This document shows, piece after piece, positions 177-38,530 of a DNA stretch of 38,632 bases. Location of the stretch: positions 1-38,632 of the IMG/VR virus record IMGVR_UViG_3300031840_000779. One strand, given 5' to 3'. The DNA is from a virus. The notes under the pieces are model-generated. The model was not told where the DNA came from. It saw only the letters and a program-made list of their open reading frames with translations, and did no database searches. Position 1 is the stretch's first letter. The number at the start of each line of letters is the position of its first letter. The position numbers and the translations under genes are program-made.

Positions 177-968
177 TCAAAACAGACCAGCCGGCTCAGC
201 GGCCAAGTCCCAGCTGAAGATCAGCACCTCCTGTCGCTCCACACCGGTACCGCCGCCAACGGTGTATCGGATACCGGTGGTCTCCATGTGGAAGTCGGCG
301 AACACCTGGCGGATATCCGGGTGGTCGTTGAGGCTGATGATGGCCTTGCCCTGGATCTGGCCCAGCAGCTCGGCCATACGCTGGTAGTGCTCCCACCCGA
401 AATCGACGCCGTAACCCTCCGTCTCCCAGTACGGCGGGTCCATGTAGAAGAGCGTGTGCGGCCGGTCGTACCGGCGGATCACTTCCTCCCAGCCCAGGTT
501 CTCGATCCAAACGTCTGATAGCCGCAGGTGGGCGGCTGAAAGGCTCTCCTCCAGGCGCAGTAGGTTCAGGCCGGGCGGAGACGTGGTGGCGGTGCCAAAG
601 CTCTGGCCCTGGACGCGGCCGCCGAACGCCAGGTGCTGGAGGTAGTAGAAGCGCGCCGCGCGCTGGATGTCCGTAAGCGTCTCCGGCCGGGTCATCTTCT
701 GCCACTCGAACACCTTCCGGCTGCTGAGCGCCCACTTGAACTGGCGCACGAACTCTTCCAGGTGGTGCTGGACGACGCGGTACAGGTTGATCAGCTCACC
801 GTTGATGTCGTTCAACACCTCGGTCTCGGCGGGTACAGGGCGCATGAACAAGAGCGCGGCGCCTCCGGCGAACGGCTCCACGTAGCACTTGTGAGGGGGT
901 AGGAACGGGATGATCCGGTCGACCAGGCGGCGCTTGCCGCCCAGCCACGGGATGATGGGGTCTGCCAT
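177..968 (-). CDS. DNA adenine methyltransferase (Dam/D12 class), in the mom position
   Basis: The 263-residue protein is an N6-adenine methyltransferase of the D12 (Dam-like) class. It has the N-terminal GGK motif (residues 10-12), the SAM-binding EPFAGG motif (31-36) and the catalytic DPPY motif (177-180). It is the last gene of the late strand and follows com by 11 bp. In Mu the same place holds mom, whose base modification protects phage DNA from host restriction. By position and expression logic this enzyme probably does the same by methylating phage DNA late in infection. The start ATG at 968 follows an AGGAGG that is largely buried in a hairpin (970-991). The methylated sequence cannot be told from the protein. 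Confidence 0.93.
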   Translation of the reverse strand: MADPIIPWLGGKRRLVDRIIPFLPPHKCYVEPFAGGAALLFMRPVPAETEVLNDINGELINLYRVVQHHLEEFVRQFKWALSSRKVFEWQKMTRPETLTDIQRAARFYYLQHLAFGGRVQGQSFGTATTSPPGLNLLRLEESLSAAHLRLSDVWIENLGWEEVIRRYDRPHTLFYMDPPYWETEGYGVDFGWEHYQRMAELLGQIQGKAIISLNDHPDIRQVFADFHMETTGIRYTVGGGTGVERQEVLIFSWDLAAEPAGLF

Positions 969-969
969 G

Positions 970-991
970 AAGCCTCCTGCTATCGAGGCTC
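970..991 (-). promoter_or_regulatory. Translation-inhibiting stem-loop over the methylase RBS
   Basis: On the transcript the arms GAGCCTC (991-985) and GAGGCTT (976-970) form a 7-bp stem with one G-U pair and an 8-nt loop. Four of the five bases of the Shine-Dalgarno GGAGG (977-973) lie in the 3' arm, and the 5' arm is made of the last codons of com. In Mu, a stem-loop hides the mom start region and Com protein binds next to it to free it. The arrangement here is the same in principle, though with a different methylase. Confidence 0.7.
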
Positions 992-1111
992 AGGGGCCTT
1001 CTGGTGGGTATTCAGTTGCCCGCAGCGCGGGCATTTGATGCTGATCCAGGTGTAGACCGCTTCGGCCAGCTTCCGCCGGCACCGGTCACAACGCACTTCT
1101 TGTTTCGTCAT
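980..1111 (-). CDS. com: Com-like zinc-finger translational regulator
   Basis: A 43-residue protein, ATG at 1111 to TAG at 980. It has two CxxC pairs (C8-x2-C11 and C27-x2-C30) with the KCPRCGQLN segment typical of the Mu Com family, small zinc-finger proteins that bind RNA and activate mom translation. It lies directly upstream of the methylase with an 11-bp gap, matching the Mu com-mom order. It is probably translated from the long structured leader described at 1116-1234. Partner and mode of action are inferred from the Mu system; the family assignment from the motif and position is firm. Confidence 0.88.
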   Translation of the reverse strand: MTKQEVRCDRCRRKLAEAVYTWISIKCPRCGQLNTHQKAPEPR

Positions 1112-1115
1112 CTGC

Positions 1116-1234
1116 AAAGCCTTTGCGGTATCTGCTAGGCTTTCTCCGCTCGGTACCGGGCGGGGAGCCTTGCCGGCTCGCAGCGTGCTCTGCGGGTTGG
1201 GCCTGGTTAGGGTGTTACCGCACCCGCGCCAGGC
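1116..1234 (-). ncRNA. Structured RNA leader upstream of com
   Basis: The transcript from the 1.34-kb promoter would carry about 190 nt before com without an evident open frame. This leader contains a chain of perfect stems: GCCTGG/CCAGGC (1229-1234 with 1201-1206) enclosing GGGTG/CACCC (1221-1225 with 1210-1214), then CGCAG/CTGCG (1190-1194 with 1179-1183), GAGCC/GGCTC (1175-1179 with 1165-1169; these two share base 1179), and a 7-bp AAAGCCT/AGGCTTT hairpin (1137-1143 with 1116-1122) ending 4 nt before the com ATG. Such packing over 120 nt suggests a functional RNA: a leader that controls com, or a separate small RNA. I do not recognise the family with certainty. Confidence 0.5.
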
Positions 1235-1308
1235 GCTCCTCTTTTCCTGTGCTGGTTACATCTGAGACTCCGTCGGTGCCTGGGTAGTGATGAAATTAAG
1301 TGCCTTAG

Positions 1309-2845: not shown

Positions 2846-5046
2846 TCGATACTCCTCGTTTGTCCTTCTTCGGTGCGGCGAAGCGTGCCGTCTTCGGCGG
2901 CGCGCGGCTCCGTGACCGTGTAGTTGAATGTGTGGCGGAAGGCTTGCCAGCTCTGCAGGCCGTCTCGCAGCGCCGTCACTTCGATGGTGAACACGCCGTC
3001 GTAGCCTGGATGGACCGTGGCCTGGTTGCCGCTGACCGTCTCCTGGAGCACCTGGCTGGCGCCGTCGAAAACAGTGAACTGGTAGGTGGTGCTCTCTTCT
3101 GGCAAAACACCGCCGTCCATCCAGGGCACGAGCACGTCTTGTTGCAGCAGGCGATTGCGGTGGACCCAACTGACGACCAGGTCCCCGAAAAGCGCTTCCG
3201 GCCATAGCTGGCCGTTGAGTCGGGCGCGTGCCGGTGGGTACGGCCGCGCCTGGCGTTGGTCCAGCTGCAGGGACACGGTGGTGGCAAGCGCGGGATCCAG
3301 CTGCTCGCCCGTGGTTCGGGAGATCAGCTTCGCGTCGACGCTGTCGCCGTCGACGTACTCGGTCGGGTCTGCGGCCGCGTAGGTGTCGTAGAACCAGATC
3401 CGGGTCCCGGCTGGGTGCCGTGCCGGCACGGTGTCCACGCAGGCCCGTGAGACGCTAACTTCGAACGTCTCGATATCGAGGCTGTCGACGCGGACGATCT
3501 CCTCGCCGATCAGTGCGGCGCGGCCCGGCTTGACCAGGTCGAGATCGATGCCGGCGGACAGGATGGCCACCGTGTCCTCCGGGCCCAGCTCGGCATCGAG
3601 CACGGCCGTGGGCACCCAGTCGCCCACGTCGCGCTTCTCGAACGCGGCCGACCCGACCCGGGTGGTGAGGTTGTAGTTGAGGGAGAGGCCTGTGGGGCGG
3701 ACACCGAGCGCGCCCAGGAAGCCGGAATCGGGCTCCAGCGCGTCGCGCTGCGCCTGGGTGGTCTGACGCACCAGGTCACGGTAGGACACCTCCAGGAGGC
3801 GTTGATAGAGCGCCGGCTGGGCCGTCCTGTTGGGCGGCTGCCACGTGGACGGCTGCTGGTCGGTGTAAACGTTGCTCGGCAGCCCGAACACGTCGAGCAG
3901 CGCTGTCACAGTGATCGCCGCGTCGTTGACGGTACCGGCTTCGATGCGGCCCACACGAAGCACTACCTTGTCGATGCCATCGTCCGGCGCGCTGATGCGG
4001 AAAACACCGCCGGGCTCCAGCGCCGCCCCCCGCCGGTCCAGACGGACCTTGAACTTGCGCACGCCGCGTTGAGCCCGGATCTCGCGCTGGGCGACGCGGC
4101 TGGCCAGCTCGTGGGTGGGCAGCCCGGGGTAGTCGGCGCTGGTGCTGATCACCGTGCCGGCGGACTGGATGGCGCCCAGGTTCTGCTCGCGCGCCGTGCG
4201 GTCTTCATTTGTGATCGGGTCGCGGTAGTTGACCACCACTTCGTTGGGAATGGTCTCGCCGGCAGAGAGCGTATCTTCCTCGATCGAGAGCAGCCCGCTG
4301 TCGTAGGTGAACAGCGGCAGATCTTCGGGCACGTAGTCGTCGCGGATCAGCCGGAGCGTCATCAGACCGGTGCGCCGGCTGATGAACTGCGCGCCGCCGA
4401 TATGATCGATGATCGTCTGCATGAAGGCGTTCACGGACTCTTTCCGCGTCCAAAGCAGGCAGAGGCCGAACCCTTCGTTGTAAAGCCGATCGGCGGCCTC
4501 TGTGTACGACTGGTAGTCGATGCGGTTGTCGCTGAGGCCTCGGCCCCAGCGGCGGTCGGTCTGACACGCGACCAGCATGTGGGCCGGGTTCATTGCGTGG
4601 ATCTGGCCATCGGCCAGCTCGATCTTGACCTTCTCCGGATACCAGCATGCGCCGTCCCAGCCTTTGGTGTGCCGGCGGTACCGGATTTTCCACGGCTTCG
4701 GATACGGGTTCATGGCCCCGATCTGGCCGTCGAAGAACAGGGTGAACATGCCTCTGAACGCCGGCACTAGGCCACCCAGCATGTTCTTCAGGCGCGTCAG
4801 CACGCCCTGGTTGGGCTCGCCCATTAGGACGTCCAGGCCACCGACAATGCCACCCTCCGCCTCATCGCCGCCGAAGAGGTAACCCTTGTTGATGTTGATG
4901 CGGGTGTTACCCGTTACCGAACCGTTCCAAGCCCGGCGATCGCCGACTCGGATCTCGACAAGCTCATCGACCGGCCCCCGGCCGATCCCCATATGTATGC
5001 CGAAGTAGTAGCGGTACCCGACCGTGACTTCCTTACTGCCGCCCAT
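2842..5046 (-). CDS. Tail tip protein (host-specificity/J-like, Phage-tail_3 type)
   Basis: A 734-residue protein. The ATG at 5046 is preferred over the upstream start at 5076 because a GGGAGG lies 8 nt before it. The middle region with IPNEVVVNYRDPITNEDRTA and repeated beta-rich domains resembles the putative phage tail protein family (Phage-tail_3) and lambda gpJ-like tip proteins, which form the central tail tip and contact the receptor. The C-terminal part (…TVFDGASQVLQETVSGNQ…) looks like fibronectin-type beta domains. It follows the hub protein and two small proteins, the usual order in transposable siphophages such as B3 and D3112. Confidence 0.8.
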   Translation of the reverse strand: MGGSKEVTVGYRYYFGIHMGIGRGPVDELVEIRVGDRRAWNGSVTGNTRININKGYLFGGDEAEGGIVGGLDVLMGEPNQGVLTRLKNMLGGLVPAFRGMFTLFFDGQIGAMNPYPKPWKIRYRRHTKGWDGACWYPEKVKIELADGQIHAMNPAHMLVACQTDRRWGRGLSDNRIDYQSYTEAADRLYNEGFGLCLLWTRKESVNAFMQTIIDHIGGAQFISRRTGLMTLRLIRDDYVPEDLPLFTYDSGLLSIEEDTLSAGETIPNEVVVNYRDPITNEDRTAREQNLGAIQSAGTVISTSADYPGLPTHELASRVAQREIRAQRGVRKFKVRLDRRGAALEPGGVFRISAPDDGIDKVVLRVGRIEAGTVNDAAITVTALLDVFGLPSNVYTDQQPSTWQPPNRTAQPALYQRLLEVSYRDLVRQTTQAQRDALEPDSGFLGALGVRPTGLSLNYNLTTRVGSAAFEKRDVGDWVPTAVLDAELGPEDTVAILSAGIDLDLVKPGRAALIGEEIVRVDSLDIETFEVSVSRACVDTVPARHPAGTRIWFYDTYAAADPTEYVDGDSVDAKLISRTTGEQLDPALATTVSLQLDQRQARPYPPARARLNGQLWPEALFGDLVVSWVHRNRLLQQDVLVPWMDGGVLPEESTTYQFTVFDGASQVLQETVSGNQATVHPGYDGVFTIEVTALRDGLQSWQAFRHTFNYTVTEPRAAEDGTLRRTEEGQTRSIE

Positions 5047-37638: not shown

Positions 37639-38083
37639 TGCAGACCAGAAGCGCCGGGATCTCGCGAAGATACACATCGCTCGCAAAGAGCTGGCGATGG
37701 ACGAAGACGCCTACCGCCTGATGCTGCAGTCAGTCGCCGGCGTGACGTCCTCGGCGAAGTTGTCGGCGCGTGGCCGGGCCAAGGTGCTGCACAGGCTGCG
37801 CCAGCTGGGCTGGAAGCCGAAAACCAGCGCCCGCCCTCGGCGCCGCGTGACAGCCCAGCAGCCCCAGGATAAGAAGATCCGGGCGATCTGGCTGGATCTC
37901 GCTGAGCAGGGAGTCGTTCGCGACCGCTCGGAGCAGGCGCTGGGGCGCTACGTGAAGCGCCAGACCGGCGTCGAAGCGCTCGATTGGCTGGACGAACGCC
38001 AGGCCGCGAAGGTGATCGAGGCCCTCAAGGCCTGGCGCCAGCGTTTCATTGATGCAAAAGGGGATACCGATGAACCAGCGTGA
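37631..38083 (+). CDS. gemA: GemA (Mu gp16-like, DUF1018)
   Basis: A 150-residue protein with the DUF1018/GemA pattern: KIHIARKELAMDEDAYRLML at the N-terminus, RAKVLHRLRQLGWKPK, then KKIRAIWLDLAEQGVVRDRS and ALGRYVKRQTGVEALDWLDE. In Mu GemA influences host gene expression and DNA supercoiling-related functions. It stands directly before the activator gene as in Mu. Confidence 0.9.
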   Translation: MADADQKRRDLAKIHIARKELAMDEDAYRLMLQSVAGVTSSAKLSARGRAKVLHRLRQLGWKPKTSARPRRRVTAQQPQDKKIRAIWLDLAEQGVVRDRSEQALGRYVKRQTGVEALDWLDERQAAKVIEALKAWRQRFIDAKGDTDEPA

Positions 38084-38420
38084 CTCCAACATGGAAATCC
38101 GCCGCAACGAGCTGCTGGAGGAAGTGCAGGCCCACACCCAGCAGATTCTGGTCGAGCACGGCATCGATGAGGATCTGGCCGAACAGGCCGGCTGCGCGAT
38201 CTGCGATCGGCTGGCGGACACCTGGGGTGGGCAAGTCGTGACCTTTCCGAAGGATCACCGTTTCCGACTCTCTCTTCGTGACCTGAAGATCTACGAGCAG
38301 TTCGACGGCCGGAATCACAACGAGCTGGCGAAGAAGTACAACCTGACAACCCGGGCCATCTATAAGATCATCAGGAGGGTGCGTGAGCGCGGAGACCCGA
38401 ATCAGCCGCGTCTGTTCTGA
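38070..38420 (+). CDS. mor: Mor-type transcription activator (Mor/C family)
   Basis: A 116-residue protein from ATG 38070 (GGGGA upstream), overlapping gemA. N-terminal dimerisation helices (about 12-50), the beta segment GGQVVTFPKD (54-62), and the C-terminal HTH (RNHNELAKKYNLTTRAIYKI, 81-100) are the three parts of Mu Mor and C. No second family member was found in the window, so this single activator probably drives the four late promoters. It is the last gene of the early operon, close to the prophage end. Confidence 0.9.
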   Translation: MNQRDSNMEIRRNELLEEVQAHTQQILVEHGIDEDLAEQAGCAICDRLADTWGGQVVTFPKDHRFRLSLRDLKIYEQFDGRNHNELAKKYNLTTRAIYKIIRRVRERGDPNQPRLF

Positions 38421-38499: not shown

Positions 38500-38530
38500 A
38501 TTTATCGCATTACCTGGTAGTATTTAACCC
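38500..38530 (-). other. Transposase-binding sites, right end (two sites)
   Basis: Read inward from the CA end (minus strand), GGGTTAAAT lies at offset 11 (38530-38522) and GCGATAAAT at offset 33 (38508-38500). These mirror the left end exactly. The stretch between the activator stop (38420) and these sites holds no gene; a direct repeat ACCCATCCC is seen at 38459-38467 and 38527-38535. Confidence 0.75.

Follow-up and report, generated by a model that had tools for sequence, protein, structure and literature searches.

Control by the regulator Com has so far been worked out mainly on the com-mom pair of phage Mu. The question raised by the present locus is whether the same kind of control has come to act on a different enzyme, a D12-class DNA methylase, and if so through which RNA structure. 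The DNA analysed (hereafter the window) is the full 38,632-nucleotide stretch of IMG/VR virus record IMGVR_UViG_3300031840_000779. A sequence-only reading of it had proposed that a short, 43-aa zinc-finger Com precedes a DPPY methylase, and both genes were found where they had been placed, with matches to PF10122 (1.7e-10) and PF02086 (1.5e-25), respectively. The features on which the argument depends are as follows.

1132..1242, minus strand: structured leader RNA, a long enclosed hairpin with further stems (alignment A4, model R1).
980..1111, minus strand: com, a 43-aa zinc-ribbon regulator, with its ATG at 1111 and its stop UAG at 982-980 (PF10122, PHROG 6417).
986..999, minus strand: Com operator hairpin and predicted docking site, AGGC (999-996), loop CCCUGA (995-990) and GCCU (989-986).
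970..991, minus strand: hairpin covering the Shine-Dalgarno (SD) sequence, with arms GAGCCUC (991-985) and GAGGCUU (976-970), from RNAfold.
973..978, minus strand: Shine-Dalgarno AGGAGG of the methylase, from the sequence.
177..968, minus strand: D12-class DNA methylase of 263 aa, with its ATG at 968 (PF02086).

The window Com scored 40.6 bits with the Pfam Zn_ribbon_Com model, whose cut-off is 22.9, and PHROG 6417, annotated as 'translational regulator', matched at 1.5e-13. The reading frame is intact with two CxxC pairs and all four cysteines, and the RC..C...L and CP.C elements that are invariant in an alignment with Mu and B3 Com are both present. A sequence search for a solved Com structure returned none; the zinc-ribbon matches obtained, eS27 among them, were weak. 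The com gene lies directly upstream of the putative D12 adenine methylase on the same strand, separated from it by 11 nt. The methylase carries its DPPY motif as YMDPPYW and scored 98.6 bits against the Dam-family model TIGR00571, which is below the cut-off of 114.85. A Mor-family gene is located at 38049-38417, and the window also encodes GemA, a gpT capsid protein, an integrase-core transposase and its AAA partner, a setting that fits a Mu-like transposable phage. At one end of the window (about 117-140) stands GCGATAAAT and at the other (38500-38515) its reverse complement ATTTATCGC; the pair is likely to represent the transposase end sites of a prophage. A small palindrome, GCAAAGGCUUUGC, was observed at 1113-1125 on the minus strand over the likely ribosome-binding site of com, with similar ones in several relatives, and com may itself be controlled.

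The initial reading had further described a 7-bp hairpin, formed with the end of com, that covers the ribosome-binding site of the methylase. This hairpin was recovered in the predicted minimum-energy fold of every stretch tried; its 7 bp include one G-U pair and its loop (984-977) contains the com stop. Considered alone, the hairpin of the window does not rise above chance. The folded stretches gave z values from +0.3 to -1.7, the com end of the window was complementary to the methylase start region at p = 0.19, and an SD at least as buried was present in 32% of GC-matched ordinary genes from the same loci. Across 29 com-D12 loci the mean SD-unpaired probability was 0.25 versus 0.39 in the matched background (p = 0.0013). 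The predicted SD-covering hairpin, weak for the window by itself, is thus supported by its relatives.

The element that ties this structure to Com is a second hairpin. In SELEX and SHAPE experiments, which used the Com of a Haemophilus and the mom site of Mu, the sequence on which Com docks was defined as CC(N)2-3GAG in the loop of a hairpin whose closing pair is C-G (PMC6483171); this definition is independent of the loci compared here. Positions 999-986 of the window have the SELEX/Mu docking form, C-G closing pair included, and this operator, AGGC[CCCUGA]GCCU, sits within the last codons of com. Hairpin-based Com control had been suspected from the SD hairpin, which is present, and the docking hairpin had been missed. 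The 5' arm of the SD hairpin (991-985) overlaps the loop end and the 3' arm of the operator. Since the GCCU arm of the operator is the core of the SD-covering GAGCCUC, the docked form and the SD-blocked form are mutually exclusive. Fourteen operator-like strings occur in total on the two strands of the window, and the weight of the single copy discussed here therefore comes from its position and from its relatives.

These relatives were collected by protein similarity, as relatives of the methylase and of com from viral and genome collections plus named phages, and were then scanned for the operator. The 272 loci with a recognisable com were reduced to 86 by removal of near-copies, and an operator was called when its stem reached 4 bp or more within the 150 nt after CPxC. 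Operators were found in 75 of the 86 com loci, compared with a chance rate of 2.3% for windows taken from these loci, and tandem operators in 50 of 86 versus 0.026% by chance; these counts ignore kinship, but different cargo classes and phage types have different stems. When codons were resampled with the Com peptide held fixed, an operator appeared in a mean of 7.1 loci (maximum 16) against 73 observed, and tandem operators in a mean of 0.24 (maximum 2) against 48 observed. Operator 2 occurs in two different reading frames with a spacing of 19-25 nt, and this variability indicates that it is no peptide feature. The codon resampling and the two frames of operator 2 exclude the possibility that the operator is a by-product of Com peptide conservation. 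Some of the 11 com loci that lack a strict operator (Chuche, for example) keep the loop motif on a shorter stem. Among com-less D12 loci an operator was detected in 0 of 33, with one locus of broken com (L046) set aside. Upstream of position 3001 that locus has a com with an apparent frameshift, both operators intact, and then a D12 methylase.

The operator stems covary. Among 67 loci, pair 3 of the operator 1 stem is kept in 66 and pair 4 in 64, compared with shuffle maxima of 58 and 49, and both sides change together (AGGC/GCCU, GGGC/GCCC, CAGC/GCUG, AUGC/GCAU and others). Operator 2 likewise appears as GCGC/GCGC, UCGC/GCGA, ACGC/GCGU and others. The stem stops at exactly 4 bp, with an A.C mismatch at the fifth position of operator 1 in 61 of 67 loci and also in Mu. 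A literature search that covered few subscription papers found no earlier report of conserved, tandem, covarying Com operators; this operator and the geometry by which the two hairpins exclude each other both appear to be new.

The gene that follows com varies far more than the operator. It encodes a D12 methylase in 31 loci, Mom in 14, an N6/N4 methylase in 13, a C5 methylase in 13 and an ABC-ATPase/GNAT fusion in 2, and the remaining loci form a set without a recognised modification gene; these classes were assigned by sequence similarity with one member per group checked against Pfam, so a few outlying members are less certain. The same docking hairpin therefore stands before at least four unrelated DNA-modifying enzymes in the 86 com loci, which indicates that the control element is kept and the enzyme varies. 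The earlier suggestion that the circuit was kept and the enzyme exchanged holds in that one operator precedes D12, Mom, N6/N4 and C5 genes; the exchange may have run from mom to D12 or the reverse, and the novelty was overstated. In FluMu and related prophages, Drozdz et al. 2012 (NAR) reportedly described adenine methylases that occupy the place of mom. Phage B3 is annotated with Com and Dam (ORF47-ORF48), and com next to a methylase also occurs in AP3, Smp131 and others. Com and an N-4/N-6 methylase are annotated in KS5 (PMC3091744). As com beside a methylase is already annotated in B3 and KS5, the pairing and the enzyme exchange were known before. On a D12 tree with some doubtful long branches, the presence of com is explained by about 4 changes, so com mostly travelled with its methylase; this count gives no support to the idea that D12 genes acquired com independently and often.

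Several individual loci extend the range of cargo. One (L004, 2655-4530) has Com with two operators, a conserved ORF of about 49 aa, the ABC-ATPase/GNAT fusion and then a formyltransferase gene, and another (L099, 3125-4422) has Com with two operators before a conserved small ORF and the fusion. Of the two ABC-ATPase/GNAT loci, Komp_PAO1_1 is the one with a formyltransferase gene after the fusion. The ABC-ATPase/GNAT fusion, together with the formyltransferase of L004, is a candidate for a new phage DNA-modification pathway. In nine Pseudomonas loci (L116, L118, L131, L132, L137, L147, L156, L206 and L207) com is present and the operators are mostly conserved without a modification gene. A B_lectin protein follows com in L132 and different cargo in the others, suggesting that Com may control bacteriocin-type genes. 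A single draft genome, that of Methylophaga thiooxydans DMS010 (G003), contains about a dozen com loci and twelve identical-scoring matches to the leader RNA, many of them near contig ends; either one Mu-like phage is present there in many copies or the assembly has produced the pattern.

Upstream of com lies the leader RNA (about 115 nt), for which a 20-sequence alignment contained compensatory changes at 16 of the 20 pairs predicted. Model R1 scored the window leader at 86 bits (2.8e-19), the window being among its training rows. Its matches, located immediately before the module, cover about half of the com loci, with D12, Mom, N6/N4, C5 and ABC-GNAT cargo, and roughly 20 of the 31 com-less D12 loci. 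In Pseudomonadaceae the leader was present in 39 of 198 genomes, usually once. Of 28 such loci that were read, 23 have it before a D12 or N6/N4 methylase and 5 before other genes. In one locus (L352) it precedes a protein that is lectin-like by sequence. Identity of the leader and operator region with a known RNA family was rejected, as no Rfam match reached the gathering score in the 17 loci scanned, and relaxed thresholds applied to the window and L028 gave only matches far below gathering scores. Our guess is that the leader may serve late transcription of extra genes.

Taken together, we consider it likely that a Mu-like transposable phage here carries a DNA-modification operon under com control, in which Com docking frees the methylase SD. 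The leader-com-methylase message would be made late in phage growth. Without Com, GAGCCUC at the end of com would pair with GAGGCUU, burying the SD and keeping the methylase silent. Com translated from the same message would dock on AGGC[CCCUGA]GCCU at 999-986, and formation of the operator would take the GCCU strand, release the SD and allow the methylase to be translated. The methylase would then mark phage DNA late, presumably against host restriction. Locking the operator in the predicted fold raised SD exposure in 18 of 30 D12 loci, including the window (from 0.33 to 0.58), and lowered it in a few relatives, among them the closest (L011); in some loci with a GUG start (L012 and L094) the start codon itself is paired by the operator. 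Complementarity between operator 1 and the start region of the next gene exceeds chance in D12 loci (mean z -1.8, p<0.05 in 13 of 29) and in Mom loci (mean z -2.4, significant in 9 of 13), and is weak for N6/N4 and C5 cargo. Control of C5 cargo through operator 1 was rejected for lack of a complementarity signal, and these loci seem to use operator 2 instead, a view that is partly supported. In the window the locked fold (-8.7 kcal/mol) costs about 8 kcal/mol relative to the free fold (-16.9 kcal/mol). At this price Com alone may be too weak at equilibrium, and the order of co-transcriptional folding or the ribosome translating com is probably part of the mechanism.

The main rival is pure translational coupling without Com binding, in which ribosomes translating com melt the hairpin and are handed over to the methylase. 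The high energetic price of opening speaks for it, as does the com stop of the window, which lies inside the SD-hairpin loop 11 nt before the methylase ATG and is ideally positioned. However, the com stop of relatives can fall as early as 40 nt before the methylase start or more than 100 nt beyond it, with about 30-50 nt beyond it being the commonest arrangement, whereas operator 1 remains steady at 27-55 nt before the start in all relatives but one. Coupling also leaves the covarying Com docking hairpin unexplained, and Com of Mu exerts its effect by binding mom RNA (PMC6483171). We regard coupling without Com binding as unlikely. Alternatively, Com could act mainly on its own message, with the operators serving autoregulation or RNA stability and the methylase being a passenger. 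The operators do lie in com or at its end, and they persist where no modification gene follows. Yet no other element follows them before the next gene starts, and the complementarity of operator 1 to that start in D12 and Mom loci argues against this proposal, which we hold to be improbable. That the structure is a chance hairpin beside a relic com gene, with no regulation at all, agrees with the non-significance of the window hairpin taken alone and is nonetheless very improbable given the conserved position, the covariation, the codon resampling, the com-less controls and the intact Com frame with all four cysteines.

In the preferred reading, in which Com docking frees the next start, the control circuit known from Mu looks like an exchangeable module. 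The locus represents a known circuit in altered form; its RNA element is well supported, and the interpretation given in the sequence-only reading is partly supported. On a broader scale, the evidence is about evenly balanced on whether the leader RNA, Com and one or two operators form a mobile cassette that circulates in Mu-like phages, P2-like phages and loci for phage-tail bacteriocins, with D12, Mom, N6/N4, C5, ABC-GNAT plus formyltransferase and perhaps lectin-type bacteriocins as interchangeable cargo. If such a cassette exists, Com and its operator would serve as a marker for new phage DNA-modification genes, so that unrecognised ones could be found from what comes after them, and the leader would constitute a new structured RNA family. 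With a docking element that covaries across the 86 com loci, what had been worked out mainly in one phage also becomes a rule of general scope that can be tested: once Com docks, the docked strand is unable to block the next start, and the exact bases to mutate are given.

Comparison with known systems places the window close to, yet distinct from, Mu com-mom. Both have a zinc-ribbon Com, and each has a second hairpin over the start of the gene that follows, the one in the window being predicted and weak when taken alone. Both docking hairpins have a 4-bp stem, a C-G closing pair, a C-N3-GA loop and A and C flanks, and both are positioned at +25 after CPxC (AUGC-CUGCGA-GCAU in Mu). The cargo of Mu is Mom (PF25680), whereas that of the window is a D12 methylase. 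In Mu the docking hairpin stands beside the blocking hairpin, which contains the GUG start (PMC6483171); in the window, unlike Mu, the 3' arm of the docking hairpin doubles as the SD-blocking strand. A leader RNA is present at the window and was undetected in Mu by the model R1 search. B3 ORF47-ORF48 resembles the window in having Com followed by a related D12 methylase and in possessing the leader RNA, but B3 has two tandem operators and a com that overlaps the methylase start, in contrast to the one operator and 11-nt gap of the window. The P2-like phages KS5 and AP3 resemble the window in placing Com, one or more operators and the leader RNA ahead of a modification gene, although they belong to an unrelated phage type and carry a methylase of another family (PF01555).
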